Origin: Chloroflexota bacterium
GTDB taxonomy: Bacteria; Chloroflexota; Anaerolineae; Aggregatilineales; UBA2796
Assembly (NCBI GenBank): GCA_021325095.1
Contig: JAJPHV010000152.1
Location: forward strand, 1 to 64,000
DNA: 64,000 bases
Reading direction: 5' to 3'
Part shown: positions 2,971-33,603 of the stretch, piece after piece
Numbering within the stretch: position 1 is the stretch's first letter
Layout of the letters: each line of letters starts with the position of its first letter
Position numbers and translations under genes: made by a program
Notes under the pieces: generated by a model
The model's database searches: none
Seen by the model: only the letters and a program-made list of their open reading frames with translations
What the model was told of the DNA's origin: nothing

Positions 2971-2972
2971 GA

Positions 2973-12499: not shown

Positions 12500-12505
12500 G
12501 AGCCT

Positions 12506-13888: not shown

Positions 13889-13889
13889 A

Positions 13890-14886: not shown

Positions 14887-14891
14887 GAACT

Positions 14892-15341
14892 TCAATCCTG
14901 CGGCAGCAGCGTGTTGGTCGATGGCCCAAACGAACTGTACTGGGCGTCGATATAGGCCCGAATTTGCTTCGATGACTGCCCTTCGTTCTTCAAGCGCATG
15001 ACATCCTTCGTAATGTCCACGCAGATACCACACCCGGCGGCGTGGTTATCAAATGTGATGCGGCCATCGGCTGCGATGTCCTTGATGTAGCAGCTCCGAT
15101 TGCTGGTATGGCCCATCTTGCCACAGCCACAATAGCACGGGTACTTGGCAAGCTCATCGGGATGCAGCGCCGCATATTGGTAGGCTTCTTTGACGGCGGG
15201 TGGAGCGTCTCTGACGAAATCGGGCAGGTTGAGGTCTGAGACCTGGGCTGTCGAACTGGCTGCGCTACAACCGGATACGATGAGTATCATCAGGCCCAGA
15301 ATGAAAGAGGGGAGCTTTGGAAGGGATCGGCTGGTGGTCAT
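14892..15341 (-). CDS. PCYCGC-motif lipoprotein
   Basis: The lipobox 'LIVSGCS' follows a hydrophobic signal. The mature part has the diagnostic 'YPCYCGCGKMGH' segment, further Cys residues in 'NRSCYIKD' and 'AAGCGICVDI', and a helical tail. PCYCGC proteins are small extracellular Cys-rich proteins of unknown detailed function, often next to copper or oxidase genes. The first gene of the five-gene CuA operon; the Fur-like box lies 24 bases upstream of its ATG. Confidence 0.85.
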   Translation of the reverse strand: MTTSRSLPKLPSFILGLMILIVSGCSAASSTAQVSDLNLPDFVRDAPPAVKEAYQYAALHPDELAKYPCYCGCGKMGHTSNRSCYIKDIAADGRITFDNHAAGCGICVDITKDVMRLKNEGQSSKQIRAYIDAQYSSFGPSTNTLLPQD

Positions 15342-15364
15342 AACGGTGTTTCCCGTCAGCAATT

Positions 15365-15383: not shown

Positions 15384-15637
15384 AATACGGATAGGGGTGG
15401 CGTGTCAGTGTAGTCTGACCTGTTTGTCCTTGAGGAATGTCACGGAGTGGGTAACGTTGTCTGCACACAATGATTGCCCGAATGCCGCCACGTCGGCAAA
15501 GATGTCATGAGTGGAGCATAGCGAGGAATTCGACTCAAGGACACCCGCCATTTGGCCTGTTTTTTTACCTGGATGGAAAGGGGACAATAAGCCATTCACT
15601 CTAATTAGCAGGTTTAACAGAGTTGAAGGAGGTCATC

Positions 15638-18110: not shown

Positions 18111-18127
18111 CGCCGAATGGCGTATAG
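18111..18127. promoter_or_regulatory. CGCC-box palindrome, copy 1 (upstream of the response regulator)
   Basis: CGCCGAATGGCGTATAG, 157 bases before the GTG start of the NarL-type regulator. One mismatch from the palindrome CGCCA-NN-TGGCG seen at 22625 and 26942. Confidence 0.6.
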
Positions 18128-18283
18128 ACAAACGGGACGCTATCAACAACAATGAACGGTATCCCAGATGTGGAGAATCGGACGCAACGACGTGGAACTT
18201 TGCCCGCCCGATAAATATGCAAGGCTAAAGGGCCTGTACCACCAGTCGATTACCGTCAAACACATAGGGTGAGGTAGGACTCC

Positions 18284-18931
18284 GTGACAACACCGCCTAT
18301 CCGCGTTGTGCTGGCCGACGATCATGGCGTCGTTAGACGGGGCATTCGAGACTTTCTGGCCGAAGCGGGCGACATTGCAGTGGTCGCCGAGGCCGAAAAC
18401 GGGCTGCAAGCGTTTGATCTCGTCGCCCAGCACCAGCCAGACGTCGTGATGCTCGATATCCAGATGCCGGGCGAAAATGGGATTGAAGTCGCCCGGCGTC
18501 TGCGCGCGGATGGTCTGACACTCGGCATCTTGATTCTCACAGCGTTTGACGATCCGCCCTACATCAAAGCCGCCCTCGAAGCGGGGGCCAATGGCTACGT
18601 GTTGAAGTCATCCGATGCCGATGAAATCATCGAGGCGGTGCGCGCTGCGCATGAGGGCAAAACGATGCTCAGTGTGAAGCTGGGTGCCAGCCTGGCGAAT
18701 GTTCTTGCGAGCCGTGAGCTTGCCAGTCAACTGAGTGAGCGCGAACAAGATGTATTGAGGCTGGCGGCGCGTGGACTGACTAACAAAGCGATTGGTTTCC
18801 AGTTGTCCATCAGTGATCGAACTGTTCAGGGACACCTGGCAAAAATCTATGAAAAGCTGGGCGCGTCCAGCCGTACCGAAGCCGTGATCCGGGCCGTTCG
18901 ATTGGGGTTGATCGAGGCTCCCTCTTCCTGA
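18284..18931 (+). CDS. NarL/LuxR-family response regulator
   Basis: A 215-residue regulator with a receiver domain (phospho-acceptor D58 in 'VVMLDIQMPGENG', acidic pair D12-D13) and a LuxR-type helix-turn-helix at about 150-212 ('LSEREQDVLRLAARGLTNKA'). The GTG start follows GAGGTAGGA. The DegS-type sensor kinase on the opposite strand 2 kb downstream is the obvious partner. Both genes have a CGCC-box upstream, so this regulator is my candidate for its binding protein, including autoregulation; that is inference. Confidence 0.9.
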   Translation: MTTPPIRVVLADDHGVVRRGIRDFLAEAGDIAVVAEAENGLQAFDLVAQHQPDVVMLDIQMPGENGIEVARRLRADGLTLGILILTAFDDPPYIKAALEAGANGYVLKSSDADEIIEAVRAAHEGKTMLSVKLGASLANVLASRELASQLSEREQDVLRLAARGLTNKAIGFQLSISDRTVQGHLAKIYEKLGASSRTEAVIRAVRLGLIEAPSS

Positions 18932-18941
18932 AACAGCACCA

Positions 18942-19400
18942 ATGACGATGAGCAGACTACAGCGTAAGCTAGGGCTAATCTTCGCGCTGGCGAGCGGCAT
19001 TCTGGTTGGCTGCTCAAGTGTGCCTCCAACTGCGACGCCGACCTCCGAACGGTTGGCTCTCGGTAGGCGAATCTACGACCAGAACTGCGCATCGTGTCAC
19101 GGGGCGCAGGGACAGGGTCAGTACCCGGACGCGCCTTATAAACCGGATCAGGCTGGTCTGATCGGCGCTCCGCCGCATAACTCAAGTGGGCATACCTGGC
19201 ATCATGCCGACGGCCTGCTGTTGGATATTGTTCGCAACGGCCTAATCGTCAAAGGCTTCCAGCCGATGCCAGCCTTCGGCGACAAATTGAGCGCTGCTGA
19301 AATAGGTGCTGTGCTGGATTACATAAGGACCTGGTGGAAGCCCGATCAGTTGGAGTTTCAGGCGACAGTCAGCGCTAGATACACGCCAGCCGCTCCTTGA
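18942..19400 (+). CDS. Cytochrome c lipoprotein
   Basis: A lipobox 'LVGCSS' at the end of the signal peptide and one class I cytochrome c domain with CASCH near residue 50 and a probable axial Met in 'QPMPAFG'. A membrane-tethered electron carrier. Only 10 bases after the response regulator, so part of the same transcript. Confidence 0.85.
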   Translation: MTMSRLQRKLGLIFALASGILVGCSSVPPTATPTSERLALGRRIYDQNCASCHGAQGQGQYPDAPYKPDQAGLIGAPPHNSSGHTWHHADGLLLDIVRNGLIVKGFQPMPAFGDKLSAAEIGAVLDYIRTWWKPDQLEFQATVSARYTPAAP

Positions 19401-19469
19401 GGTTATTGACGTAGCACAGTTCGCCCGATAAACATCAAAGCCTTTACGGTATTGTCAACGGAGAATGCG

Positions 19470-20051
19470 ATGAGTGCAAGAAAAGCTGTCCCCAAGAATC
19501 CGATTTCGGTTAAGCCTTCCCATGGCATCCGTCGCTACCTTTCGATTGAGCGGCTCATCATAGGTGGCACTGTATTCTCCTCGTTGTTGATCGTTGCACT
19601 ATTGGTGATGAGCCAGCCACCGGGACTCAACGCAGACGTGGCCGACAAGAGCCAACCGGTCACAATTCAGGGCAAAGCACATATTCAGCCAGGATCATCG
19701 CATCCACGCTATGCCTCGAATCCGCCGACGTCAGGCTGGCACGATGGAGGGTCAACTGCTGATTGGGGAAATCACCTGACTGTCATACCCGACGTGACGA
19801 TGGTCCATAACCTGGAACACGGCGGCATCTGGATTTCCTACCGGGACGCAGAAGATGCGCAGACAATTACGGAACTCGAAGCCATCGTTAGTCGCTATCC
19901 AAAGAATGTGGTGCTAACGCATCGTCCAGGCAACGACAGCCGGATCGCGGTTGCCGCCTGGGGGCGGCTGCTAAAGTTAGAGTCAGTCGATAGCGCTCAG
20001 ATCTTTAACTTTATTGCACGCTATCAGCTCAAAGGACCGGAAAACGTATAG
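19470..20051 (+). CDS. DUF3105 membrane-anchored protein
   Basis: One N-terminal membrane helix (about 28-50) and a DUF3105 domain recognised by 'YASNPPTSGWHDGG' and 'VHNLEHGGIWISY'. The several invariant His residues suggest metal binding, though the function of the family is not established. Start at the ATG with GGAGA nearby. Follows the cytochrome c lipoprotein. Confidence 0.8.
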   Translation: MSARKAVPKNPISVKPSHGIRRYLSIERLIIGGTVFSSLLIVALLVMSQPPGLNADVADKSQPVTIQGKAHIQPGSSHPRYASNPPTSGWHDGGSTADWGNHLTVIPDVTMVHNLEHGGIWISYRDAEDAQTITELEAIVSRYPKNVVLTHRPGNDSRIAVAAWGRLLKLESVDSAQIFNFIARYQLKGPENV

Positions 20052-20055
20052 GGGA

Positions 20056-20877
20056 GTGTCAATAGCGTTGTTACGGGAGATTCTGGGCGCACTTCTGCTG
20101 ACCCTCGTGGTGGGTACAGTGGGCTGGTTTCGCTTACAGGCCGCGCCGCCCCCGGATGGGACATTACGGCGCGTACATATACCCATCCTGATGTACCATT
20201 ACATCAGTGTCCCGCCCGATGACGCTGATAAATTTCGCCTTGATCTATCAGTCACACCCGATAACTTCCGAGCGCAGATGAAATGGTTAAAGGAACTGGG
20301 GTACAGCACGATTACGCCTGATGATTTGGTCGCTGCATTGACAGAGGGTCATAAGCTGCCCAATCGACGCGTTTTGCTCACCTTTGACGATGGCTATGAG
20401 GATGCCTATATCAATGCGTTGCCAGTCTTGAAGGAATTTGGTTTCACAGGGACTTTTTTCATTGTCACGCGCTTCGTCGATGAAAATAGAAACGGTTATC
20501 TGACCTGGAAACAAGTAAAAGAAATGATTCATGATGGCATGTCCATCCAGAATCACAGCCGCCGACACTACGATATGCGTGGCCGCACACGCGACTGGCT
20601 GCTGTATGAAATAGTTGGCCCCCTACAAACAATTGAGGCGCAAACGGGCGTCCGTCCTCGCTACTTTTGTTACCCTTCCGGCCAATATGACCTCGAAACT
20701 ATCCGCACCCTATAGTCTGTAGGGGTGGTCGCCGCTTTCACGACAGAACACGGCGCTGATGCCTACACAGACGATATGTTGCGATTGCCCCGCATCCGTA
20801 TTCGCGGGTCAACTTCGCTTGCCCAATTGGGTCGGTTGATAACCGGAAAGCCGGACACCGGCAACCGAGGCCGTTAA
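20056..20877 (+). pseudogene. Polysaccharide deacetylase (NodB-like) interrupted by an in-frame TAG
   Basis: NodB-fold deacetylase with an N-terminal membrane anchor, 'PILMYHYIS', the catalytic motif 'LLTFDDGYEDAY', 'SIQNHSRRHYDMR' and 'RYFCYPSGQYD'. The reading frame meets TAG at 20713-20715. The same frame then continues for 53 codons with family-like sequence ('VVAAFTTEHGADAY', 'LRLPRIRIRG') to TAA at 20875. A single C-to-T change (CAG to TAG) would explain it. The truncated protein keeps the catalytic motifs but lacks the last strands. The start is taken as GTG overlapping the end of the DUF3105 gene; an upstream TTG is possible. Confidence 0.75.
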
Positions 20878-22553
20878 ATGGCGCCTGCGGCTAGGCTTAC
20901 CTCGATAAGGGTTCCTTTGCCGGGCTGCGATTGAATACGAAATTGGGCCTGCATTTGTTCGGCACGTTCAACCATGCCCATCAGCCCATAGTGGCCGCTT
21001 TGAGCCAACGTGCCAGGGCGCTCTGGAACGGCGAAGCCGCAGCCGTCATCCTGGATGCTGAGAACCACATTCTTGTCAAAACACAGTTTGACCTCGATCC
21101 GGGTGGCTTGAGCGTGTCGCAGCCCATTCGAGATCGCTTCCTGAGCGATACGGTACAGGCCCAGTTCATAGTTCGCAGGCAGGCGTCGCGGTGCGCCTTC
21201 GACGATCAAACGGATGTCAACCTTGTTGGGTTGGCTGCTTTGCGCGGTTAGCCCTTCCAGCGCCGGTGTCAGTCCCAGATTCTCAATATAGGATGGACGC
21301 ACATTCTGAAGCAACCGTCGCAGGTTTTTGATGGTTTGATCGAGCATGGTTCGCAATTGTTCCAGGTGTTCAGCGACCTTTGCCGGGTCGCGCCCCAGCA
21401 TCCGCTGTGCCATCTGCCGCTGCTGATCCAGGGCGATCAGAGCCTGGAGCGTGTCATCGTGAAGTTCACGAGACAGACGTTTGCGTTCATCTTCCTGTCC
21501 TTGAAGGATGGCGGCAATGTAGCTGTGCATTCCCATTTGCATCTGTTGGAGACGCTGCGCCATGTCATTCAGGGTTGCCTGCAATTCCCGAACTTCCTGA
21601 ACGCCGCCCACCGGTTGCCGTAGCGCCCCATAATCTCCCCAGGCCACGCGCGCTGTGGAGCGCCCAAGTCGCTGAAGTGGAAGGACAATGCGTGTCAAAC
21701 CGAACAGCAGGACACCCATCGCCAGCAGCAGCGCCGGAAGCATCGCTAATGGCGCGACCAGGGACAAGCGCAACGTTGGACTCAGGACCGCCTGCCACGG
21801 TTCTTGAACAACCACTGTCCAATTGAGCGTCTCAACGTGGCTGGAAACGGTGATCGTGTCCTGGGTGTCGTAGCGCGTGACTGGATGCTCTGCACTGCTA
21901 TACTGGACAAGCGGCGCGACAATTCCCGGCCAGTTCTTTGCATCGGTGCCGACGGCAGCTCCTGCCGAATCTTGCAGAATGTGTCCATCGTCGGCTGCCA
22001 GATAGACGCGAACCTGCGGATTGTTGCGCATAATGCCCATGGTCCCTGGCACATTGAGACTGGTGAGCGAGATGGCTCCGAACAGGGCGATGTCCCCGTT
22101 TACGCTCTGCGCAGTCACGATCACGAGAGGGGTCCGCGCCTCGTGCTCGACGACCCAGGGACCGGCTGCACTGCGCAAGCTAGATTCCCAGGCCATTCCT
22201 GGCTGCCAGGATGCGATCACTGCCCCCTGCCTGTCGACGGCTACAAGCCCGCCGTCGAATACAGAACGGACCGCTCGCTCGTTTTGCAGAATGCTCTCCA
22301 AAGTTAGCCCGTCGGCCAGCCGGTCAGCGATCACTTGAAGGACAAGCCGCCGCTGGGCGAAGCGATCCGCCAGTACTTCAGCCGCTGCTTGCACGGCGCG
22401 CTCGTCACGTTCTCCAACAAGCATGTGCATAGCACTCTCGTGAAGGGAAATCCCTGCATAGCCCACGCCGACCAGCAGAAGAATGACCGGCACCACGAAG
22501 AGGGCCAAAAGCTGGATAAGTAGACTGCGCGGACGGGTCAAAAGGGATGCCAT
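20874..22553 (-). CDS. DegS/NarX-type sensor histidine kinase
   Basis: The N-terminal helix (about 12-35), a large extracellular sensor region (about 35-270), a second helix and HAMP (about 275-350) lead into a HisKA_3 dimerisation helix with H365 ('SRELHDDTLQAL') and a HATPase domain ('ISNGLRHA', 'DDGCGF', 'GLMGMVER'). Pairs with LuxR-type regulators such as the one at 18284. Divergent from the multicopper oxidase with the CGCC-box in between, which suggests feedback control. Copper or redox stress is a likely signal, by context only. Confidence 0.85.
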   Translation of the reverse strand: MASLLTRPRSLLIQLLALFVVPVILLLVGVGYAGISLHESAMHMLVGERDERAVQAAAEVLADRFAQRRLVLQVIADRLADGLTLESILQNERAVRSVFDGGLVAVDRQGAVIASWQPGMAWESSLRSAAGPWVVEHEARTPLVIVTAQSVNGDIALFGAISLTSLNVPGTMGIMRNNPQVRVYLAADDGHILQDSAGAAVGTDAKNWPGIVAPLVQYSSAEHPVTRYDTQDTITVSSHVETLNWTVVVQEPWQAVLSPTLRLSLVAPLAMLPALLLAMGVLLFGLTRIVLPLQRLGRSTARVAWGDYGALRQPVGGVQEVRELQATLNDMAQRLQQMQMGMHSYIAAILQGQEDERKRLSRELHDDTLQALIALDQQRQMAQRMLGRDPAKVAEHLEQLRTMLDQTIKNLRRLLQNVRPSYIENLGLTPALEGLTAQSSQPNKVDIRLIVEGAPRRLPANYELGLYRIAQEAISNGLRHAQATRIEVKLCFDKNVVLSIQDDGCGFAVPERPGTLAQSGHYGLMGMVERAEQMQAQFRIQSQPGKGTLIEVSLAAGAI

Positions 22554-22624
22554 GACCTGTAAACCTCTCATTGGCTGCGACACGCCTAAGCTTACAGTAT
22601 CCGATGATACCCAGGCCAAGAATG

Positions 22625-22641
22625 CGCCAAATGGCGTATAG
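22625..22641. promoter_or_regulatory. CGCC-box palindrome, copy 2 (kinase / multicopper oxidase divergent promoter)
   Basis: CGCCAAATGGCGTATAG with a perfect CGCCA-AA-TGGCG core, 79 bases before the oxidase ATG and 72 bases before the kinase ATG. Confidence 0.65.
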
Positions 22642-22719
22642 ACGGCGGCGCACGGAGAGGACACAATTTTCAGACGTGAGCCAACTTCTTAGTACCAAAT
22701 TGAATTCAGGAGATAGTCG

Positions 22720-23955
22720 ATGAGAGACATTCGGCAGCGGCACGAAAATGGGATTCGGCCTTCTAAGGCAGGATTTTGGGCAAATGTATTGGCCCTCGCA
22801 GTCCTGATTGGGTTAGTCTCAATCTTTGGCCTTGTGCCTTCTGCCATCGCGCAATCACCCACTGCTACGCCAACTGCGGGGAGTGCCGATCATAACGCGC
22901 ATCACCCGACTGCTACCCCTCCGCCCGACACAATCGGAACGCCAAGTGCCACGCCAGGAACGAATGGGATGGATATGGGCGGGATGATGGGCGGTACAGG
23001 TACTCCTGGAATGGGTGGCATGAATATGGGCGGTCACGATATAGGGGCAGTGGATGGAAGCGACGCGCCCGCCGCACCTAAAGACGCGCGAGGTGGACAG
23101 CGTCTCGAACCCAAGCTGGTCGGTGGTGTCAAAGAGTTCAGCCTGACTGTCCAGAAAGTACGCTGGCATATTCTGCCTGATGTCGAAGTTGTGGCCTATA
23201 CCTACAATGGGACAGTCCCCGGCCCAGAAATTCGCGTCACGGAAGGTGATCGGGTACGTATTCTCGTCACGAACACGCTGAAAGAACCGACCGTCGTTCA
23301 TTGGCACGGGATGCAAATCCCGAACGACCAGGATGGCGCAGCCGACGTGACCCAGCCGCCGATCAAGCCTGGCGAGACATTCACCTATGAGTGGAAAGTT
23401 CCCAACACGCCCGGCACGTACTTTTACCATACCCATTTTGAGGGCGACAAACAGCAAACGCTTGGCCTATACGGTGCGCTCATTATCGAATCGAAACAGC
23501 CAAAGGTGAAATATGACGCCGAATATACGGTCATGCTCGGCGAGTGGACGGTCAAAGACGGCAAAACCTATCCGTCTATGGACATGGAAGGTGCATTACC
23601 CAACTACTTCACGATTAATGGTCACAGCTACCCCTCAACGGACACCCTTAATGTCAAGGTGGGCCAGCGTGTCCTGATCCGCTTCATCGGTTCCGGCCAG
23701 TTTATTCACCCGATGCACCTGCACGGCCAGCCTTTTAAGATTGTCGGCACAGATGGCAACCCGGTGCCTGAAGCGGCTCAACTCACTAAGGACACGGTGC
23801 TTGTGGGGCCAGGAGAGCGGTACGATGTCGCGTTTACAGCGCGTGCGCCTGGCAAGTGGCTGCTGCACTGCCACATCAACCACCATATCACGAACGATGG
23901 CAAAGAAGTTAACGGAGGTGGCGGCCTGGTCATGGTGGTCAATGTAACCCCCTGA
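22720..23955 (+). CDS. Two-domain multicopper oxidase
   Basis: Oxidises Cu(I) or another small reductant with O2 outside the membrane. A signal peptide, a Met/Gly/His-rich segment (about 55-105) that looks like a copper-binding extension, then two cupredoxin domains. All four copper-ligand motifs are present: HWHG (H194, H196), HTH (H237, H239), HPMHLHG (H330, H333, H335) and HCHINHH (H383, C384, H385, H389). At 411 residues it is the short two-domain form. AGGAGA precedes the ATG. Its place in the CGCC-box set suggests induction by the two-component system. Confidence 0.9.
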   Translation: MRDIRQRHENGIRPSKAGFWANVLALAVLIGLVSIFGLVPSAIAQSPTATPTAGSADHNAHHPTATPPPDTIGTPSATPGTNGMDMGGMMGGTGTPGMGGMNMGGHDIGAVDGSDAPAAPKDARGGQRLEPKLVGGVKEFSLTVQKVRWHILPDVEVVAYTYNGTVPGPEIRVTEGDRVRILVTNTLKEPTVVHWHGMQIPNDQDGAADVTQPPIKPGETFTYEWKVPNTPGTYFYHTHFEGDKQQTLGLYGALIIESKQPKVKYDAEYTVMLGEWTVKDGKTYPSMDMEGALPNYFTINGHSYPSTDTLNVKVGQRVLIRFIGSGQFIHPMHLHGQPFKIVGTDGNPVPEAAQLTKDTVLVGPGERYDVAFTARAPGKWLLHCHINHHITNDGKEVNGGGGLVMVVNVTP

Positions 23956-23977
23956 ACAACCCACCTTCGATTTTAGT

Positions 23978-24045
23978 GGCTGTGTTGTCGAGATGCGCTG
24001 TTAGACGCTGTTTCGGGGCCAAATTCCGGTTCTCGCAACACAGCC
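23978..24045 (+). terminator. Long stem-loop after the multicopper oxidase
   Basis: GGCTGTGTTG (23978-23987) pairs with CAACACAGCC (24036-24045), with a further CGAGA/TCTCG pairing inside. An A-rich stretch and then a T run follow within 35 bases. Probable transcription end or leader structure for the next gene. Confidence 0.45.
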
Positions 24046-24120
24046 GACGAAAAATGGGCTGATTTTTTGAAGGTTAAGAATGAATATTAGCCAGTACGAG
24101 GCGATTAATCGGGGGCAATT

Positions 24121-25614
24121 ATGCGTAGTACCCGGCTTGGAATAATACTCTTCTGTATATTTGTGCTGGTGTTCAGTGGCTTACCAAGCAATGTACGCAA
24201 TGTGGAGGCTCAGTCTGGCGGCACATGCAGCCCATTTTCACCGCCCACACTGAGCGCTGTTAAGCAGTTGTGTGGTGGCTTAACAGCTAACAGCGTGTGC
24301 TTTGGCAGTGATTCGATAAAAGTCACACTTGCCAGTTCGTCCACTTCCGTCTCCAAATCGAAGGGCGAACATATGGATCTGGCGGTTCTCTCCACACTGG
24401 CAACTTCGTCGAGCAATTCAGAGAGCTCAAACAATGGGATTGCTATCCTTGATATTGAGGCCGATCTACCTGTCGAGAGGAAGGGAATCACCGCTGTCTT
24501 GTTTGGTGATGCCAACCTTACGTTAGATGCCCGCACAAGTGCGGCTGAACCGAAAAGCCCATTGCCAGCCTTTACGCTTGCGACCGGGGACCCCGCGATA
24601 TGTAATGGCTCAACCTCATCAGGCTTGCTGTTGCAGCTATCCGGTGAGCAGACGGCCCATCTGCTCGTCAACGGCGCGGCACTCTCGTTGTCGGCGGCTA
24701 CCCTGTATGTTCGCGCAACACCCAAAGATCATCTAGAAATTGCAGCCATAACTGGTTCGACAACAGTGACCGCTCAGGGAAGTACAGTCTCCCTCAAAGC
24801 CGCTGAATGGACACGAATGCGGCTGGGAGGTCAGGACGGCTTGGCGGTGGTTTCTGCCCCATCCCCAAAAGCCGCTTATCCTTTTGCCTTCGTGGATGGC
24901 ACACCGGTCATGGCGCTCGCGTCGGATGTCCCCTGTACGGTGGGTTTACCAACCGACAATAAAGCGCGAGTAACTGTTCGCGTTGGCCCCGGCCAGGAAC
25001 GCGGCTCCTTATTTTTCATGCGACCCGACTCAAGTTACCGGGTTGTCGGCTGGGCCAGCGACTCTAAAGGATCTCCCTGGTGGAGCATAGATGCATATGG
25101 CCGAGCGCAGGCATGGGTCGAGCAGGCCGCCGTCCATACCCTCGGCAAATGCGACCAGGTGGCGCAGGTCGCAGCACCTCCAGTCATTGTGGCAGTGCCG
25201 CCCGGTGACGCGGGCAGCGATAGCGGCCCAACGAACACTGATACTGGCGCACAGGGCTTTGCGCCAAACACCGCAACCATTTGGAACGTCAATCCCGGCC
25301 TCGATAAGCCAGTCGGTGACTGCCCCGCCGACGTGGCCCCAATCAACTACTGCCCCTCACTGGTCGCGCTATCTCCGAAAGGGAGTGGCCTCCTGTGGAA
25401 GGGTCAGGAGTTGACGCCGTACTTTATGTACCGCGTGCGCGAAAATGTATATTCATACTCAGGTCCTGCTCCCGAAGCGCTCGGCCCTGGCACGATCAAG
25501 CTGACGCTCGTGTTCACCAGCCCAAATACCTGGACGACGACCCGCATTCTGACATTAAGCAGCGCCCCTGCTTGTCAGCACTTTTATACATTTACTGGCA
25601 CGTTCCTACGTTAA
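24121..25614 (+). CDS. Large secreted protein with FecR-like and SH3-like regions
   Basis: A clear signal peptide, then Ser-rich beta-structured regions. The middle (about 110-250) resembles FecR-type anti-sigma/carbohydrate-type folds ('LTLDARTSA...', 'GSTVSLKAAEWTRM'). About 280-345 looks like a bacterial SH3 domain ('KARVTVRVGPGQERGSL'), and a C-terminal beta domain follows a Pro/Gly linker. Likely acts at the cell surface. Function unknown. Such SH3 architectures are common in Chloroflexota. Confidence 0.7.
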   Translation: MRSTRLGIILFCIFVLVFSGLPSNVRNVEAQSGGTCSPFSPPTLSAVKQLCGGLTANSVCFGSDSIKVTLASSSTSVSKSKGEHMDLAVLSTLATSSSNSESSNNGIAILDIEADLPVERKGITAVLFGDANLTLDARTSAAEPKSPLPAFTLATGDPAICNGSTSSGLLLQLSGEQTAHLLVNGAALSLSAATLYVRATPKDHLEIAAITGSTTVTAQGSTVSLKAAEWTRMRLGGQDGLAVVSAPSPKAAYPFAFVDGTPVMALASDVPCTVGLPTDNKARVTVRVGPGQERGSLFFMRPDSSYRVVGWASDSKGSPWWSIDAYGRAQAWVEQAAVHTLGKCDQVAQVAAPPVIVAVPPGDAGSDSGPTNTDTGAQGFAPNTATIWNVNPGLDKPVGDCPADVAPINYCPSLVALSPKGSGLLWKGQELTPYFMYRVRENVYSYSGPAPEALGPGTIKLTLVFTSPNTWTTTRILTLSSAPACQHFYTFTGTFLR

Positions 25615-25635
25615 CAGATTACGAGGAGACCGCTC

Positions 25636-26798
25636 ATGATGCGACGATCCGCCTTATTCATCCTCATAATCCTGGTAACCATGGCGCTCCTTATTACCAG
25701 CCGAATGCCTGGACGACTGTCGAACTCAATCTGCGTGTCGGCCCAGGACGCAACTTCGATTCAATTACGAGCCTTCCGATGAATACTGCGGTTGTGCTTG
25801 AGGCCCGTAACAGCGACACGGCCTGGGTACTTGTACATGTCGTTGATAGTGGCGTTCGCGGTTGGGCCAAGACGACCCTATTGAAAATTGCGCCCGGTGT
25901 CAGTATTTACCGCCTTCCGATCAGCGATGCCCAGATCGTGCCTGGTGCAGGAAACGCTGTTGGTACACCGCCAGCGCCGACGCCCGGCCCGGTCCCAACG
26001 GTTGTCCTGGATCGCAATCTGACTGCGCCAATCCTCCCACAGATCACCACTTCAATGCGCTATCAGGCCCGTCTGATTCGCCAGAAGGGTCAACAACTCG
26101 GCAACAACCCCGCCGTTTTCTCGAAAGTCGGAGACTGTATGACCGACTACTGGGCCTTCCTTGACCCATTCGGCTACGGAACCTACGACTTGGGCAAATA
26201 CGGCAATCTTCTCGGCGCCATTCAGCGCTTCTCGACGCCGCTCCGTGACGGAGTACCCAACTCCTGGAGTGCTAAAAGCGCTGCTGCGCATAACGGCTTT
26301 AACTCCAGTGCGGTGCTTGATCCCCAATGGGCTGACCCGTCGATCTGTCTTAAGGGTGAGTCGCCGCTGCAATGTGAGTACCGCCTGAATAAGCCCGGCA
26401 TCGCCGTTATTATGTTCGGCACGGCGGATGTGTTGGTCATGACGCCGCGCGAGTATAACTATTACCTGCGTGAGATTGTCAAGGAAACAATGGATCGCGG
26501 GATTCTGCCGGTACTCAGCACTTTCCCAGAAAATCTCGCTGTGCGCGAGAAAGCCAAGCAAATCAATCAGGTTGTTCTAACCATCGCCAAAGAGAAGAAC
26601 ATTCCGGTGATGAATTTGCAAGCGGCGCTAGAAGGATTACCGAACAACGGCATCGACAGCGACGGGATTCACCTGACAGTGCCTCCCGAAGCGCGTACCG
26701 CGTTCTTTTCCGACGAAAACATGAAATACGGCTACACCATCCGTAATCTGGTTACTTTGCAAACGCTGGATATCGTTTGGCGAGAGCTTATGCGCTAG
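25636..26798 (+). pseudogene. Secreted SH3 plus SGNH-hydrolase protein with a probable frameshift after the signal peptide
   Basis: An ATG with GAGGAG upstream encodes a good signal peptide (MMRRSALFILIILVTMALL). That frame runs into a stop near codon 50. The neighbouring frame contains an SH3 domain ('VELNLRVGPGRNFDSITSL') and an SGNH/GDSL-type esterase domain to 26798 ('VGDCMTDYW', 'FGTADV', 'DSDGIHL'). The junction falls around 25680-25730. Either a one-base indel broke the gene, or the domain frame uses an internal start and is cytoplasmic, which is unlikely for this domain pair. A sequencing error is possible. Confidence 0.6.
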
Positions 26799-26941
26799 AT
26801 CAATATCGGGCCGAGAGAATTTCGCTATGGACACAGGATACTTCACCATCCCACGACCAGTTGATCTGCCAGGAGTCACGCCATCCCCAGCGGCGAATTG
26901 CTTCTTTCTAGACTTTTACACCGGGGAGTGGCATAGGAACA

Positions 26942-26958
26942 CGCCATTTGGCGTATTG
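26942..26958. promoter_or_regulatory. CGCC-box palindrome, copy 3 (upstream of the DsbA-like gene)
   Basis: CGCCATTTGGCGTATTG with a perfect CGCCA-TT-TGGCG core. It lies 70 bases before the ATG of the thioredoxin-fold gene. Confidence 0.65.
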
Positions 26959-27027
26959 TCGGGGTACACCAGTTCCGCTATTGTAGGCTGAGACCTGGAT
27001 CGATGTGATGTGGAGAAATATGCGGCT

Positions 27028-27930
27028 ATGGCTGATGTCAACGCTTCATTAGATTCCGCCGACGCAAATCGAAATCAATCATTGGAGCCGATAAGGCTTC
27101 CCAATGAACCCACAAGTCGTTCCGAACCGCCGCAGGATGTCATCGTCATTAGCCGCACGACCCTGGGCTACATGGTGTTTGCTTTCATCCTCTTCTTAGG
27201 CGCATACGTGGCGGGTTGGGTGATGGGCACGCAGTCCGGTGAAGCGGCATCTGTCGTCCGAACCGCTGTTAAGGAAGCCGTTGCAACGACTATTGCGCAA
27301 CTTCCCGGCAGTGGCGACAGCGTGGCAGCCGCGCAGCCACAACAGCCACCTACTCAAGACCCGAATCAGCGTTTCAGCGTCAGCATAGAAAACAATCCGA
27401 CAATCGGCCCCGACAATGCCCCGGTCACCATCATCGAATTCAGCGATTTCCAGTGTCCATTCTGCAAACGCTTCCACGATACAACGCTCCCTGTGCTGTT
27501 GAAAAAATACGAAGGCAAAATCCGGTTCGCCTATCGGGATTTCCCCATCAGTTCGATCCATCCTTACGCTCAAGGCGCGGCGGAAGCCGCCGAGTGCGCC
27601 TACGCTCAGAATAAGTTCTGGGATTATCACGACCTGCTGTTTCAAGATCAGCAGCGGTTGACTGCCGATGATCTGCTGACTTATGCCAAGCAGTTGAAGC
27701 TAGACATGACCGCCTTCAAGGACTGCCTTGACAGCAGGAAATACGCCCAAGAAGTACAGAGCGACTACCAGGCCGGGTTGACCTTGAGTATAAATGGGAC
27801 TCCGACTTTCTTCGTGAATGGGCGAATGTTGGTGGGCGCACAACCGCTGGAAGTCTTCACCTCTTACATTGATGCCGAACTGGCTGCCGCAAATGCATCC
27901 GTCACAGCCACGCCGAAAGCTGCATCCTGA
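27028..27930 (+). CDS. DsbA-like membrane-anchored thiol oxidoreductase
   Basis: An N-terminal cytoplasmic stretch, one membrane helix (about 45-65), a Pro/Gln linker and a thioredoxin_4/DsbA fold with active site C143-P-F-C146. A cis-Pro region ('NGTPTFFVNGRML') is visible. Predicted to oxidise or shuffle thiols of exported proteins. The ATG with GGAGA upstream is preferred over the GTG six codons earlier. The TlpA-like gene follows within 7 bases, and CcdA (now disrupted) lies further on, so this was one redox pathway. Confidence 0.85.
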   Translation: MADVNASLDSADANRNQSLEPIRLPNEPTSRSEPPQDVIVISRTTLGYMVFAFILFLGAYVAGWVMGTQSGEAASVVRTAVKEAVATTIAQLPGSGDSVAAAQPQQPPTQDPNQRFSVSIENNPTIGPDNAPVTIIEFSDFQCPFCKRFHDTTLPVLLKKYEGKIRFAYRDFPISSIHPYAQGAAEAAECAYAQNKFWDYHDLLFQDQQRLTADDLLTYAKQLKLDMTAFKDCLDSRKYAQEVQSDYQAGLTLSINGTPTFFVNGRMLVGAQPLEVFTSYIDAELAAANASVTATPKAAS

Positions 27931-27936
27931 GGCGCT

Positions 27937-28599
27937 TTGAAATCGCCGATGCAAAGACCGCGCGGAGTTTCTCCGATCCTGGTAGCCTTGCTGGCGATTC
28001 CCGTCACCGGGATGTTGTTTATCGCATTGCAGCAGGCGGTCAGGGTGTCGCGGGGTGAGCCATCGATCACATCTGCCCTGGTGACTACCCTGGCCGACAT
28101 GCTCCCAAATGCGATTCGGCACACAGCGACATTCCTGGTTCTCAGCGTACCGACACCTACGCCACTATCGGCAGGCGAGGCGGCTCCGGCTTTCTCCTTG
28201 TCGGGCCTGGAAGGAAAGCCACACAGCTTGGATGATTACCAAGGGAAGCGCGTGGTGCTGAACTTCTGGGCATCCTGGTGCGCGCCGTGTCGCACCGAGA
28301 TGCCCCTTCTGGAAGCCACTTTCAAGCGTTTAGAGAACAGTGGTGTTGTCGTTATCGGGGTCAACTATGCAGAAGAGGCATTACCTGTTCGTCAGTACGT
28401 GGGCGAACTTAACATCACGTTCCCGATTCTCCTGGACGTGGACAGGTTCGTTTTCGACAAATACGGCGTTACAGGGTTGCCCACCACATTTTTCATCGAC
28501 TCGAAGGGTAAAATGCGAGCTAAGTATATTGGCATGTTGACCCCTGAAGCGCTACAACAGTACCTTGATTTGCTTGCGACGTTTGACCGTGTATCGTAG
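27937..28599 (+). CDS. TlpA/ResA-like thioredoxin protein
   Basis: A membrane anchor (about 10-35) and an AhpC/TSA-type thioredoxin domain with C115-A-P-C118 in '[15 protein letters not shown]' and the cis-Pro '[12 protein letters not shown]'. Family members reduce disulfides on the outside, for example in cytochrome c maturation or CuA-site reduction, and receive electrons from CcdA. Start taken as TTG with GAGG upstream; an in-frame ATG four codons later is the alternative. Confidence 0.85.
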
Positions 28600-28617
28600 T
28601 GGATAATCAGAGAGAGT

Positions 28618-29409
28618 ATGACTACCCCAATTGACATCAGCGCGCCTGTTGTTTCTCGTGAGCGCCAGACGGCCAGGAAAGTGGTGCGTGGCTTCCTGTG
28701 GTTTTCCGATCACTGGGTTCTTGTTTTCTCGCTGTTTTTCGGGGCGTTCGTCGTGGCGCCCTTCCTGGCTCCGGTATTCATGCATTGGGGCTGGATAGAG
28801 CCTGCCCGGTTGGTCTACACGGTCTACAGTACCTTGTGTCACCAGATGGCGCAGCGTTCCTTCTTCCTGTTTGGCCCGCAACCGATGTATAACATCGCCC
28901 AACTGCCAGTGACCATGACGAATAATGACGTTGAGAACATGTTAGCGCTGCGCAATTTCATTGGAAACGCCGACCTGGGCTGGAAAGTCGCGTGGTCAGA
29001 CCGCATGACGTCGATGTACGGTGGGGTGTGGCTGGCCGGTATCCTGTTCGGCCTGCTGCGGCAAATCCGCGAGACTCGCCACCTGCGTTTGCCCGTTTTT
29101 CTATTGCTGCTTGTGCCGATGGTCGTCGATGGTGGGACACACTTCCTAAGCGACATCAGCGGCGAACTGGCCGGAGGGTTTCGCTACAGCAATCAGTGGC
29201 TGGCGAACCTGACCGGAAACGGGCTGCCAACCTGGTTTTACGCGGGTGATGCGCTGGGATCATTTAATTCCTTGGTACGGCTGATCAGCGGAGTCCTGTT
29301 CGGGTTCGCCGTTGTCTGGTTTGCTTTCCCGTATCTGGATCGCAGTCTTCGAGAGACGGCAACGGTCTTGCGTTTGAAACTGGCAGGATTACGTCCAGCG
29401 ACGCAATAG
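28618..29409 (+). CDS. DUF2085 integral membrane protein
   Basis: Four to five helices, with the DUF2085 signature 'YSTLCHQMAQRSFFLFG', then 'DRMTSMYGGVWLAGILFGL' and 'VVDGGTHFLSD'. The function of the family is unknown. Follows the TlpA-like gene by 18 bases and is probably co-transcribed. Confidence 0.8.
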   Translation: MTTPIDISAPVVSRERQTARKVVRGFLWFSDHWVLVFSLFFGAFVVAPFLAPVFMHWGWIEPARLVYTVYSTLCHQMAQRSFFLFGPQPMYNIAQLPVTMTNNDVENMLALRNFIGNADLGWKVAWSDRMTSMYGGVWLAGILFGLLRQIRETRHLRLPVFLLLLVPMVVDGGTHFLSDISGELAGGFRYSNQWLANLTGNGLPTWFYAGDALGSFNSLVRLISGVLFGFAVVWFAFPYLDRSLRETATVLRLKLAGLRPATQ

Positions 29410-29487
29410 CCAATAATGCAGCCAAGCGTCAATCGATGTGTTGCTGGCAAGTGCGCTTCTATTCTGTCATCGCCGTCTTGGTATGTA

Positions 29488-30441
29488 TCAGGAAAGTGGT
29501 TTCGTGCCGACGAATAATGGGAAACGGGCTTGTTCTCGGTGCATGGAGGTGGGCCTGAGCAGCCGCCGTAGGAAAAGAGCGCCCGGACGCTCCGGCCAAT
29601 GGATAGTCGTTCGGAATCCTGCACGGTTCAGTGCAGCAACTATCTCATCGAACACAAGATAGCCTGTGCCTTCAACAGGAACCTCGTCAAGCCCATACTG
29701 AGACTTGAAACGCGCGAGCTGCTTCTGCATCATCTGCATTCCACTGGCGTTATCCCGATATACTGGACTGTCCATGATAATCAGTTTGCCGCCTGGCCTT
29801 AACACGTCAAATACGCTTTTCAGCACTGCACTGACATTCACATAATGACACGCGGCGCTGACCACGCAGAGCGTCATGCATCCGTCGTGGACAGGCAAGT
29901 GCTCCATACTCGCCTGTCCACGCAGAAAACCATTCTCAGCTTTCTCAAGATAGACCCGTCCACCACTCAGGCTGTCCTGACCTTCGACGTTAATATCCAG
30001 CGCCAGAACCCGGTAACCTGCCAGGGCAAGATGATGACTCAGCCAGCAGTTTCCTGCCCCCAAATCGAGTGCCCAAGCTTGCCGGTCAATCATCAGATGT
30101 TTCATTAGAATGCCGAATGTCCGACGCCTTAGTCGCCAAATATCGGCGTGCGGATCATCGTCTGGAACGTTCGGCAGCATGAGGTAATAGGAATTATCTT
30201 GGTGTTCCCATCCATCTCCCTGGCGAATTTGATGGTAGGCGTCGAGAAATGATCGGTGCCGGGCTGCGTCATCGGGAAGCAAGAAGCGCCAGATACCCTC
30301 ATTCCGAGGATAAATGCGCCCGCAACCGCGACAGGTCAGCCTATCTGACGATTCAAGCGATAGCGCTGCGCGGCAGGCAGGGCAGGCGGCGATTGACTCG
30401 AAGGCCCTTTCAAGCTCATCCTGGGGAATCTGTGTTTGCAT
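29488..30441 (-). CDS. Class I SAM methyltransferase with N-terminal zinc ribbon
   Basis: Residues 15-45 hold a Trm112-like zinc ribbon (CPAC and CRGCG), followed by a Rossmann methyltransferase with motif I 'ALDLGAGNCWLS' and 'VFDVLRPGGKLIIMDSP'. The substrate cannot be told. It reads in the same direction as the interrupted CcdA gene and lies 120 bases after its 3' fragment, so it may have been co-transcribed before the IS arrived. Start at the internal ATG (30441); the longer version lacks a ribosome site. Confidence 0.75.
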   Translation of the reverse strand: MQTQIPQDELERAFESIAACPACRAALSLESSDRLTCRGCGRIYPRNEGIWRFLLPDDAARHRSFLDAYHQIRQGDGWEHQDNSYYLMLPNVPDDDPHADIWRLRRRTFGILMKHLMIDRQAWALDLGAGNCWLSHHLALAGYRVLALDINVEGQDSLSGGRVYLEKAENGFLRGQASMEHLPVHDGCMTLCVVSAACHYVNVSAVLKSVFDVLRPGGKLIIMDSPVYRDNASGMQMMQKQLARFKSQYGLDEVPVEGTGYLVFDEIVAALNRAGFRTTIHWPERPGALFLRRLLRPTSMHREQARFPLFVGTKPLS

Positions 30442-30563
30442 CCTTAGTTGAGAGCGAGTCAAACACCCTCTCCGGACATTATGAACCCGATAGGCACTGT
30501 CCAATGTTGCTCAAAGGCAGTGTCCCGTTGAAAAAGTCTGTCGTACACTGCTCCAACTTGTAA

Positions 30564-30626
30564 CTAAAGGTGGCATTGGCAGCGCCGATCTGCGAAATAC
30601 GCTGCATATCGCCCGTATAAACTAGG
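30564..30626 (-). pseudogene. ccdA: 3' fragment of the CcdA gene
   Basis: Joining this piece to the 5' part across the IS (keeping one CTAG) continues the frame as 'GVLVYTGDMQRYF...' to a TAG at 30564, a normal CcdA C terminus. The restored protein would be 285 residues. Confidence 0.75.
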
Positions 30627-32193
30627 AGGTTGTCGGAGAGAAACGTCTAATCGGGTTTGAAGCGGATCTATAAAGAGGGGGCATCATTTTGTTGACCTCA
30701 AAAGTGCCCCAAACCGTCAAAAAACAGCCTCCAGACAACAAGATTCTGGGGCAGAGGCACAGCAAAGCTAAGCCAACCGGGCTTGAGGGAAAAGGACATG
30801 CAAGCGCTTAAAGTTAAAGGCCAAACAGACCAAAGCCCATTCTCCAGCCGCAGACTTCACGCCACGCAAGGAAAACTGACGAAACCCCAAGACTTCTTTG
30901 ATAATGCCAATGACCGGTTCGACCGTGCATTTGCGGAGACGGTAGATTTCGCGTCCGAAAGCCGTTTGGAGTTTGTAGGCCATCTTGACTTTAGACGTAG
31001 CCGTGTCGGGCGGTGGCTCAGGCTCCTGAGCGAAAAAGGTCTGCCAGGCGCGATGATGGGCTTCACGACCGGTGGCAATGTATGGCTCAATCCCGCGTTG
31101 TTCACAGGCTTGGCTAGTGGCTGGACTAAAATAACCGTTGTCCAGAGCCGCCCCCTCCACTTGACCCAGATTAGCGAAGAGCGCCGCGAGCGTGGGTTCC
31201 GCTTCGCGCTTATCATTGGGGTGGTTCGATAGACTGGTGGACACAATCACTAAGCTGGCCTGATCGACGGCCACCTGCGCGTTGTAATGCTGGTCAAACC
31301 CCTCATCGGTACTGTTCTTCATCACCCGCGAGTCCGGATCGGTGAAATTGTACTGGTCCTTGTCGCGGGGGCCTGGCTCTGGCGGCACCGGAGGTTTTCC
31401 CCCAGGCCGACGCTTGTTGTGCTTGGTTTTCTCCGCCCGTTCTCGGACTTTGGCTTCATACTCGGCTTGTTCGGCCGCGTAGCGTTCAACGGCTCGTGCT
31501 TCCAAAACCGCTTTGGCCTGCGCCAGGTTTTCTAAGCGGAGCTGCCGCCGCGCCAGTTCATTCTCTATGACCAAGCCACCCGGTAAAACCACCTCGCCCT
31601 GGTCGGCGCTTTCTCCCAAACTCAATAACTCATGGACTTCCGCGCGCCATTGCGTTTCTATGGCTAGCAGACGTTTGTAGCTCACTGCCTTGTGCTTGGA
31701 AGCATCGGCGTGAATTTTGCTCCCATCCAGACTGATATTGCCTACCTTCAAGACCCCGACCGCTTGCGCTACCAACAAGACTTGCACAAACAACGCTTGG
31801 ATTTCGTCCAAAAAGGTCTTGCGAAAGTTCGCTAGCGTGTCATGGTCGGGGTGCAGTCCCCCAGCCACATATTCAAAAGGCAAACGCTCATACGTCGCCC
31901 GTTCCATCTGGCGCGAACTGAAGACCCCACTGGCATAACCGTATATCAACAGTCCCAACAGCACTTCCGGCGCTATGGCTTTGCCCCCGACAGTTCCATA
32001 CTGTCCATAGACGCTCTCCAAATCTAACAGGCTCACCACGCTGACCACAAAGCGTGCCAAGTGTTCCTCTGGCAGGGCTTCCCCCACCCGGATCGTCTTA
32101 TTCAACATCGCTTCGTAATCTGGTTTTTCGAATTGTCGTGTCATCCCTCCAGTTTACCCCTCAATCCCTTCATCCGGGTTCTCCGACAACCTC
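30627..32193 (-). mobile_element. IS1182-type insertion sequence, 1,567 bp, inserted in ccdA
   Basis: Terminal inverted repeats GAGGTTGTCGGAG at 30627 and its complement ending at 32193. Flanked by a 4-bp direct repeat CTAG (30623-30626 and 32194-32197). Removing the element and one CTAG restores the ccdA frame exactly. Confidence 0.9.
30768..32144 (-). CDS. IS1182-family transposase
   Basis: A 458-residue DDE transposase: an N-terminal DUF772-type region ('APEVLLGLLIYGYASGVFSSRQMERA', 'RLPFEYVAGGLHPDHDTLANFRK'), the first catalytic Asp in 'ISLDGSKIHADASKHKA', the second in 'GAALDNGYFSP', and a C-terminal 'VEPVIGIIKEVLGFRQF' with the catalytic Glu. It appears intact, so the element may still be active. 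Confidence 0.9.
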   Translation of the reverse strand: MTRQFEKPDYEAMLNKTIRVGEALPEEHLARFVVSVVSLLDLESVYGQYGTVGGKAIAPEVLLGLLIYGYASGVFSSRQMERATYERLPFEYVAGGLHPDHDTLANFRKTFLDEIQALFVQVLLVAQAVGVLKVGNISLDGSKIHADASKHKAVSYKRLLAIETQWRAEVHELLSLGESADQGEVVLPGGLVIENELARRQLRLENLAQAKAVLEARAVERYAAEQAEYEAKVRERAEKTKHNKRRPGGKPPVPPEPGPRDKDQYNFTDPDSRVMKNSTDEGFDQHYNAQVAVDQASLVIVSTSLSNHPNDKREAEPTLAALFANLGQVEGAALDNGYFSPATSQACEQRGIEPYIATGREAHHRAWQTFFAQEPEPPPDTATSKVKMAYKLQTAFGREIYRLRKCTVEPVIGIIKEVLGFRQFSLRGVKSAAGEWALVCLAFNFKRLHVLFPQARLA

Positions 32194-32992
32194 CTAGGAC
32201 CCCGATGATGACCATCAAAACGCCGCTGGCAACCTTAATCGTATTCAAGTGACGCTTCAGCCCGCGAAGGATGACTTGCGCACGATCCAAGGCGACAGCC
32301 GTCAGAATGAAGGGTATGCCCAAACCCAGGGAATACGCGACCATGAGGCCACCTGCCTGGAAAACGCTGCCACCGCTGGCCGCCATGGTCAAAATCGTTC
32401 CGTAGATAGGGCCGCCGCACGGCGTCCAGCCTGCCGCAAAAATGACCCCTACGAGGCTTGAGCCAAGCAATCCAGAGCGGCCACGCGACCTCACCTGCAA
32501 ACGTGTATCGGCATACAGGGCGCTTTGGAGCCACGCTAATCCCCGTTTGATGTAAATTCCAGTTCGTCCGAGGTGTTCCAGCGCAGGTCGGCATTCTAGC
32601 CAGTGAAGCACAGGCACAATCAACCCCATGAAGTGCAGGCCAAATAGAACGATCAGAATGCCGCCCACGTGCGGAATGATCACCCGTTGAATTTCATAAA
32701 ACATCGAAGACAACAGGCGTGTGCCTGCTGTGATAGCCAGACCGAAGACTACAAACACGAACATGAAGCCCGCCACAAAAGCGACGCCATGTAGCGCCAT
32801 TTGAAACCGGCGCGTCTGAGCAACTTGCACCGATATCCCAGGAACAGTGATGGTACTCAATCCAGTAACGACCTGGGCGGTAACGCGATTACCCATGTAA
32901 CCAACGTAGGCAGGCACGAGGGGCAGTACGCACGGTGAGATAAAGGACAAGAACCCCACGATAAATGCCAGCCATACCGTGACATTGATCAT
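32194..32992 (-). pseudogene. ccdA: CcdA cytochrome c biogenesis protein, 5' part, cut by an IS
   Basis: CcdA moves reducing electrons from cytoplasmic thioredoxin across the membrane to proteins such as TlpA/ResA. Six helices are present, with both redox Cys in their usual motifs ('FISPCVLPLVPAYVG' and 'AAGWTPCGGPIYG'). The frame now reads into the IS and ends with foreign residues, losing about 20 C-terminal residues at the end of the last helix. Start at the ATG with GAGGATG upstream. It may retain some function because only the extreme C terminus is replaced. Confidence 0.85.
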
Positions 32993-33066
32993 CGATACAT
33001 CCTCAGCAGATTCGTTCGGATTGGGCAGTGCTTCGACTGGAGCAGTTTGTGATCTTGACACACGGA

Positions 33067-33081
33067 TGCCAAATGGCAATA
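33067..33081. promoter_or_regulatory. Variant CGCC-box half of a tandem pair
   Basis: TGCCAAATGGCAATA, a perfect TGCCA-AA-TGGCA palindrome, directly adjoining the next box with 15-base spacing. Confidence 0.5.
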
Positions 33082-33098
33082 CGCCGAATGGCGTATAG
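33082..33098. promoter_or_regulatory. CGCC-box palindrome, copy 4 (CcdA / YtkA-like divergent promoter)
   Basis: CGCCGAATGGCGTATAG, identical to copy 1 over all 17 bases. Its outer arms extend to ATACGCC and GGCGTAT. It lies between the divergent CcdA and YtkA/FixH-like genes. Confidence 0.65.
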
Positions 33099-33177
33099 GA
33101 AGGGGAATATTAAAACTATACAATGAAATATTCGTAAGGGCAGCCACTTTGCACACCGAAGGTAATACCTCTGAGTG

Positions 33178-33603
33178 ATGGCGATCTACATGATACGTGC
33201 CCACATGCGATGGCTGGCATTGCCAATTTCGCTGATTGCCGTGTTGCTGGGCGCTTGTAGCCCAAGCCAGAATGTTACTCCCACCAGCACCGATGACCTG
33301 AAAATCACCCTGAATACAAACCCTAGTCCGCCTCGACTTGGCGACAGCCAGTTGTTGATCGACATTGTCAATGCAGCCGGTCAAGCTGTAGACGACGTAA
33401 AAGTTGACATATCGGTTGGCATGTCCAGTATGTCGATGGGCGGCACACAGGATGGGCAAGCCGATAGCCAGGGCAAAGGGCGGTATGCGCGACTGGTAAC
33501 GTTGCACAGTAATGGGGAATATGTCGTTCGCCTCTGGGTGAGGCGTAACGGGCAACTTCTCAAAACTCAGGAATTCCGCTTCACTGTGCAGGGAGGAAGT
33601 TAG
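33178..33603 (+). CDS. YtkA/FixH-like lipoprotein
   Basis: A lipobox 'VLLGACS' after the signal and one Ig-like domain of the FixH/YtkA type ('PRLGDSQLLIDIVNAAGQ', 'GKGRYARLVTLHSNGEYVV') with Met-rich 'GMSSMSMGG', a possible copper-binding loop. Such proteins assist copper enzymes or oxidase assembly. Several ATGs compete (33178, 33190, 33205); the first gives the longest signal region. Confidence 0.7.
   Translation: MAIYMIRAHMRWLALPISLIAVLLGACSPSQNVTPTSTDDLKITLNTNPSPPRLGDSQLLIDIVNAAGQAVDDVKVDISVGMSSMSMGGTQDGQADSQGKGRYARLVTLHSNGEYVVRLWVRRNGQLLKTQEFRFTVQGGS

Follow-up and report, generated by a model that had tools for sequence, protein, structure and literature searches.

Response regulators (RRs) of the copper two-component systems CusRS, CopRS and PcoRS are of the OmpR type. 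Among regulators with a LuxR-type output domain, lux boxes are centred at −42.5, and a centre near −42 is the position of class II activators. CopRS of Synechocystis is described as controlling a DUF305 protein; this is the domain of CopM, a periplasmic copper-binding protein that is induced by copper and whose operon also encodes CopRS (PMC4335983). For CopS and CusS, a His of both subunits is described as binding metal (Cu+/Ag+) at the dimer interface (PMC7763554). The literature searched contains little on how copper is controlled in Chloroflexota. Here, a 64,000-nucleotide stretch of a Chloroflexota bacterium (positions 1 to 64,000 of contig JAJPHV010000152.1, assembly GCA_021325095.1; hereafter the window, which is C76:1-64000 of genome G000 in our numbering) was analysed for a short palindrome with the conserved core CGCCAWWTGGCG. 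The palindrome probably marks a previously undescribed control circuit, and we hold it to be quite likely that it serves as the operator of a NarL-type copper/redox two-component regulon, with class II activation and a probable copper signal.

A pattern scan of the window with CGCCRNNTGGCGTAT gave four exact matches, all on the forward strand and all at the positions (18111, 22625, 26942 and 33082) from which a preliminary description of this DNA had proposed a regulon. The sites, their promoter elements and the two regulatory genes are as follows:

15546..15557, forward: weak fifth site CGCCATTTGGCC with one core mismatch, between a PCYCGC lipoprotein gene (reverse) and the CopA gene (forward)
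25 bases past the 15546 palindrome, forward: −10-like GACAAT
18111..18125, forward: palindromic site 1, CGCCGAATGGCGTAT, upstream of the RR gene
18148..18153, forward: putative −10 AACAAT, 25 bases past the palindrome (TAGACA-17-AACAAT)
18284..18931, forward: NarL/FixJ-type RR, receiver plus GerE helix-turn-helix (HTH), recognition helix RTVQGHL (Pfam, alignment)
20874..22571, reverse: sensor kinase with HAMP, HisKA_3 and HATPase domains, an extracytoplasmic dCache-like domain, and H44-x3-M48 after the first transmembrane helix (TM1)
22625..22639, forward: palindromic site 2, CGCCAAATGGCGTAT, in the divergent region between kinase and multicopper oxidase
22662..22667, forward: putative −10 CACAAT, 25 bases past the palindrome
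26942..26956, forward: palindromic site 3, CGCCATTTGGCGTAT, upstream of the DsbA/TlpA genes
26979..26984, forward: putative −10 TATTGT, 25 bases past the palindrome
33067..33078, forward: degenerate neighbouring palindrome TGCCAAATGGCA
33082..33096, forward: palindromic site 4, CGCCGAATGGCGTAT, between CcdA and the YtkA lipoprotein
33119..33124, forward: putative −10 TACAAT, 25 bases past the palindrome

Copies 1 and 4 are identical, as had been described, and the near copy said to adjoin the last site was recovered at 33067. The length of 17 bases given earlier fits the identity of copies 1 and 4 once two downstream bases are added, but the pattern itself has 15 positions; in our reading, its trailing TAT belongs in part to the flank of the palindrome and in part to the beginning of the −35 region. 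Across loci of the own genome and of relatives, (A/T)A(C/T)(A/G) frequently adjoins the core to the left and its complement to the right; most sites differ in flanking sequence. All four sites are intergenic, as had been claimed, if gene starts are set by homology (near 22571 for the kinase according to homologous N-termini and, in our own reading, probably near 32992 for CcdA), but not with the longest open reading frames (ORFs): that of the kinase (GTG at 22664) would cover the 22625 site, and that of CcdA begins 3 bp from the 33082 site. The earlier statement that the window holds no further intergenic copy stands for exact copies but misses the weaker site at 15546. Since one-mismatch cores are common by chance, this fifth site rests on its −10 spacing and on comparison with the relative G001 (locus L134), where a full core precedes a CopA that is 76% identical to the window CopA.

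With up to two mismatches to CGCCRNNTGGCGTAT, 12 matches were found in the window against 3.67 expected from shuffles (largest shuffle, 11). Across the whole genome (6,578,512 bases), nine exact matches were found and none for the reversed pattern, which served as control for the motif scans. Eight of the nine fall into two islands, of which one is the window and the other is on contig C129 (four sites at C129:156338-175497), and each encodes a NarL-type RR plus a kinase; random scatter over the genome, which the preliminary description had named as a refutation, was thus not seen. The ninth, on C132 between convergent ORFs, looks like a chance occurrence. Allowing one mismatch raised the count to 50 against 19 for the control, so matches of this kind are mostly noise and too noisy for extending the regulon. 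A closer look at part of them, in stretches around the places on C29, C43, C70, C125, C132, C139, C148 and C152, revealed a site scoring at least 17/20 only on C29, where it sits within an ORF; the rest were covered in 3-kb loci at most. Weak sites also occur at C129:143914 and on C99, and the own regulon is likely confined to the C76 and C129 islands. Furthermore, the own islands (104 kb) contain seven strict cores (0.03 expected), and 12 relatives' loci that had been fetched by the RR and not by the motif (148 kb) contain four (0.1 expected), but 89 kb of other own DNA contain none.

The palindromes stand at a fixed distance from a promoter element. Of the 17 own site directions with a downstream gene, filtered for near-duplicates, 8 have a hexamer that matches TATAAT in at least four of six positions and begins 24–25 bases past the palindrome (mean at other offsets, 1.0), as have 21 of the 57 from relatives (mean at other offsets, 4.6); in neither set did any of 2,000 shuffles reach as high. 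With this hexamer placed at −12 to −7, the palindrome is centred near −42. This geometry was found in the own and relatives' sets and is weak in the class-level set described below. A simple sigma-70 scan of the window (13 versus 10.2 expected) is by itself uninformative. Several loci carry paired sites: in L121 two sites 87 bp apart lie between divergent DUF305 and PCYCGC genes, as if each promoter had its own, and pairs spaced 74–98 bp occur in L117, L118 and L163, where the gene to the right is not clear from the ORF calls.

The RR at 18284 carries a receiver domain (PF00072, residues 8–120) with the phospho-acceptor Asp, and D12, D13, D58 and K108 are nearly invariant in the RR alignment. 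Its output domain is a GerE/LuxR-type HTH (PF00196, E 8.7e-19) and not an OmpR/PhoB winged helix, as Pfam gives no Trans_reg_C. The best PDB matches, over nearly the full length, are NarL (E=1.7e-36), VraR (2.4e-36) and ChrA (4.8e-34), and its best named relatives are in metagenome-assembled genomes labelled Anaerolineae or Anaerolinea. Among the 29 GerE HTHs of the own genome (Pfam, E<=1e-5), three RRs share the recognition-helix signature, on C76 (window), C99 (72% identical to the window RR) and C129 (58% identical), and the three matches to RTVQGHL codons in the genome are exactly these. A regulon, as the preliminary description proposed, is supported by sites, clustering and co-localisation, but with three paralogous RRs of the same helix signature the motif is not assignable to the window RR alone.

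The C129 island encodes, besides its paralogous RR and kinase, a CsoR-family repressor, CopA, an OmpR-type RR, a YHS protein, cytochrome b, CcdA, a cupredoxin, DsbA and TlpA. Its sites are located upstream of several of these genes and also of a receiver-only relative of the RR (L031:13112-13528; 55% identical, no in-frame HTH, behind a full palindrome), for which a truncated or decayed RR copy and a phosphate sink are candidate explanations. Also on C129, L032:8340-10350 contains two ORFs in a row whose N-termini are DsbA-anchor-like and which have a full palindrome each; the first is without a Pfam match and the second has a DsbA domain.

The co-occurrence of motif and regulator was determined in 61 relatives. 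CGCCAWWTGGCGTAT was found in 15 genomes (one control match) and the RR at E<=1e-50 in 16, with both in 10, the motif only in five, the RR only in six and neither in 40 (Fisher p=1.5e-4). For each of the five motif-only genomes there is an explanation. In G018, a solo HTH-YHS gene whose product shares the recognition helix has its likely GTG start about 70 bp past the site; in G055, a more distantly related RTVQGHL RR (42% identical) is encoded beside the sites; and in G004, G007 and G010, whose whole genomes were searched for the RR at E<=1e-50 and not for RTVQGHL codons, the four places all fall within ORFs of 227–1410 aa and look like chance. Among the RR-only genomes, a strict core is present in the fetched loci of G003, G035 and G049, a relaxed core in that of G040, and a one-mismatch core, a kind common by chance, in G046. 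Moreover, nine of the 20 relatives' motif loci hold a VQGH[LF] gene within the stretch, seven others (L117, L121, L122, L126, L129, L134 and L136) belong to genomes with such an RR elsewhere, and the in-ORF places of G004, G007 and G010 make up the last four. The G018 protein itself (L128:9348-9791 on G018:C5, likely GTG start 9426) joins a LuxR-type HTH with the RTVQGHL helix to a YHS metal-related domain and is possibly a one-component copper regulator.

The association extends to 298 genomes of the class. Strict YRCGCCAWWTGGCGYRT was found in 39 of them (one control match) and RTVQGHL codons in 84, or 86 once AGR arginine codons are included (three matches of the reversed codon pattern in either version); both versions miss RSVQGHL and shifted helices, and the first also AGR arginine. 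Without AGR, the version used for the Fisher and distance tests, motif and codons coincide in 22 genomes (p=6.4e-5), and with AGR in 23 of the 39. Of 57 motif places, 15 are within 20 kb of an RTVQGHL-type HTH gene, against 0.37 expected: three in the own genome, two in the same order (G018 and G023) and 10 in eight genomes outside the order from which the consensus was derived. Motif and RR family thus both co-occur and co-localise in relatives, where the preliminary description had asked for conserved co-occurrence.

The window kinase is of the HisKA_3 class (PF07730, E 1.1e-14) and, judging by proximity, is likely the partner of the window RR. All 21 kinases chosen for alignment have H44 and M48 directly after TM1. 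Among kinases that lie near a VQGH[LF] gene and are complete at their start, 39 of 43 rows showed H-x3-M, as did 26 of 29 distinct kinases after repeat copies from overlapping loci were removed by hand. The more distant kinases listed showed no H-x3-M, but many of them are fragments and hence a poor control. A model of the sensor (three sequences; mean predicted local distance difference test score, 73) fits a dCache-like fold and gives no support for a metal site; among the 50 Foldseek matches listed, chemoreceptor and kinase dCache domains were matched at E 3e-9 to 2e-6 and template modelling scores, by query length, of 0.27–0.60. By analogy with the interface His of CopS and CusS, H44/M48 could be a copper site.

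Genes beside the sites were identified from Pfam matches and from their homology to proteins of the window and of C129. Recurrent among them are genes for the RR, the kinase, CopA, multicopper oxidase, DUF305, DUF2085, DsbA, TlpA and CcdA, and an operon of PCYCGC, COX2-like cupredoxin, DUF1573, Fer4_5 and cupredoxin-cytochrome c genes, the one to which DUF305 is divergent in L121; DUF7482 and YHS proteins are also encoded beside sites. Sites precede CopA, multicopper oxidase and DUF305; copper efflux and oxidation genes are putative targets. In the window, the genes concerned are:

6780..15362, reverse: leftward gene run beginning near the 15546 site
15623..18079, forward: P1B-type metal (copper) ATPase CopA with HMA domain (Pfam E1-E2_ATPase, HMA)
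18942..19400, forward: cytochrome c (Pfam), lipoprotein-like signal by eye
22720..23955, forward: multicopper oxidase (Pfam Cu-oxidase domains)
27010..27930, forward: DsbA-like thioredoxin-fold protein (Pfam Thioredoxin_4/DSBA)
27937..28599, forward: TlpA-like thiol-disulfide oxidoreductase (Pfam AhpC-TSA/Redoxin)
28618..29409, forward: DUF2085 membrane protein (Pfam), a recurrent site neighbour in relatives
32141..32992, reverse: CcdA-like DsbD_TM protein (Pfam; longest ORF 32141-33079, start inferred)
33175..33603, forward: YtkA-like protein (Pfam)

The leftward run encodes a PCYCGC protein, a COX2-like cupredoxin, DUF1573, a Fer4_5 protein, a cupredoxin-cytochrome c, DUF4397, an ORF without a Pfam match and a CopC-CopD-cytochrome c, and its part from PCYCGC to cupredoxin/cytochrome recurs beside sites in relatives. 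Directly behind ccdA, a transposase (DUF772, DDE_Tnp) occupies 30768-32144, and the CcdA C-terminus reads oddly, as if cut by this element. At the left of the window, a single ORF at 3975-5654 joins a cation-efflux part to a Band_7/SPFH part, adjoining two more ORFs at 1837-3914 that, judged by eye, are prohibitin-like.

From these observations we infer a circuit in which the palindrome would be the operator of a family of NarL/FixJ-type RRs with the RTVQGHL helix, including the window RR (18284-18931), whose likely kinase is the one at 20874-22571. The phosphorylated RR would bind CGCCAWWTGGCG as a dimer centred near −42 and would activate, rather than repress, a promoter of the sigma-70 type in which the −35 region comes immediately after the palindrome (a class II arrangement). 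Predicted targets are extracytoplasmic copper and redox functions, that is, the copper ATPase, multicopper oxidase, cupredoxins, cytochromes and thiol-disulfide oxidoreductases, and the RR and kinase genes themselves. These targets, together with the H-x3-M that the kinases conserve, point to copper in the periplasm, or a redox state linked to copper, as the probable signal, which the kinase perhaps senses via the His-x3-Met just outside TM1. A broader proposal, that this NarL-type family is widespread in Anaerolineae as a regulator of extracytoplasmic copper and of cuproprotein and thiol maturation, with Cu(I) sensed at H-x3-M of the dCache kinase and with YHS-fused one-component offshoots (G018) sensing metal directly, is put forward only tentatively.

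Several observations weigh against this circuit or limit its reach. The third RR/kinase copy, on C99 (L160:9402-11574), has only the weak site GGCCGTTTGGCG nearby, and G048 shows no core-like site in 7.8 kb around its RR. Three kinases near an RR are without H-x3-M (G048, with H-x3-T, G151 and G055). The sites in L117, L119, L121, L122 and L135 overlap ORFs of at least 100 aa, the reality of which is unsure, and the related loci are not independent of one another. At class level, 62 codon genomes are without the strict motif (63 of the 86 in the AGR version) and 17 strict-motif genomes are without the codons (16 of 39 with AGR), while the −10-like hexamer at 24–25 bases was found in only 6 of 38 directions (mean at other offsets, 2.5, one at 9), a count that 97 of 2,000 shuffles equalled or exceeded. 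OmpR-type RRs of over 40% identity, moreover, are present in 5 of the 20 relatives' motif loci (L118, L120, L124, L125 and L129).

This last point raises the question of whether the palindrome is bound by CsoR or an OmpR-type RR, with the NarL-type genes as mere passengers of copper islands. C129 does encode regulators of both kinds near its sites, and CsoR sites are palindromic as well. CsoR was nevertheless found in none of the 20 relatives' motif loci or the window, only on C129, and no OmpR-type RR lies near the window sites: what was detected at 35750 (receiver only) and 18302 (the NarL-type RR itself) are receiver matches at 28%. Given also the occurrence of the VQGH[LF] helix across the motif loci set out above, and that a solo HTH-YHS protein directly behind a site points to the RTVQGHL-type HTH, we regard this explanation as unlikely. 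Still less credible, to the point of being very improbable, is that the motif is an artefact, either a selfish repeat or a GC-rich palindrome that arose by chance. Single-mismatch copies near the background level, the C132 copy and the four in-ORF copies in G004, G007 and G010 are what such an origin would produce, but control counts of 0, 1 and 1 (own genome, 61 relatives and 298 class genomes), clustering at copper promoters, differing flanks at most sites and the fixed −10 spacing are not.

The more serious competitor, which we consider possible though rather doubtful, leaves the RR on the palindrome but makes it a repressor, or the activator of a general redox or respiration switch with no copper signal. 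In a qualitative view, genes for thiol-disulfide proteins, cytochromes and DUF2085 are repeated neighbours of the sites too, and the solved dCache examples among the matches listed bind amino acids and other small molecules. Repression fits poorly with the position of the site, which is upstream of the −10 with its centre near −42 (8 of the 17 own directions and 21 of the 57 from relatives), a placement typical of activators. A switch indifferent to copper is likewise at odds with the recurrence of CopA, multicopper oxidase and cupredoxins near the sites, with DUF305, the domain of the copper-binding CopM (PMC4335983), and with an H-x3-M conserved at the membrane edge.

In the open-access literature searched, the string CGCCAAATGGCG occurs in no paper, and no description of the NarL-type copper/redox circuit was found. 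The proposed operator, its family of regulators, the promoter geometry and the candidate site of sensing make the circuit directly testable and offer a tool for predicting copper-related genes among those of unknown function (PCYCGC, DUF1573, DUF2085 and DUF7482).

Compared with described systems, the window RR resembles NarL, VraR, ChrA, DesR and DevR in combining a receiver with a GerE HTH over nearly the full length, and none of the five is known to bind CGCCAWWTGGCG or to control copper genes. The lux box of LuxR offers a parallel in class II activation, its palindrome likewise centred near −42 beside the −35 region, but the sequence is another one, and a phosphorylation-controlled RR here takes the place of the acyl-homoserine-lactone receptor there. 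CsoR regulons share copper genes and palindromic operators, whereas a CsoR gene is absent from the window and the 20 relatives' motif loci and present once on the own C129. CusRS, CopRS and PcoRS are similar in their membrane kinase, conserved His near the membrane and, as putative targets here, CopA-type ATPase and multicopper oxidase, yet the present system differs from them in its GerE (LuxR-type) HTH, its HisKA_3 kinase with a dCache-like sensor and its short palindromic site; if the proposed circuit is true, it would add a LuxR-type branch to the copper two-component systems.

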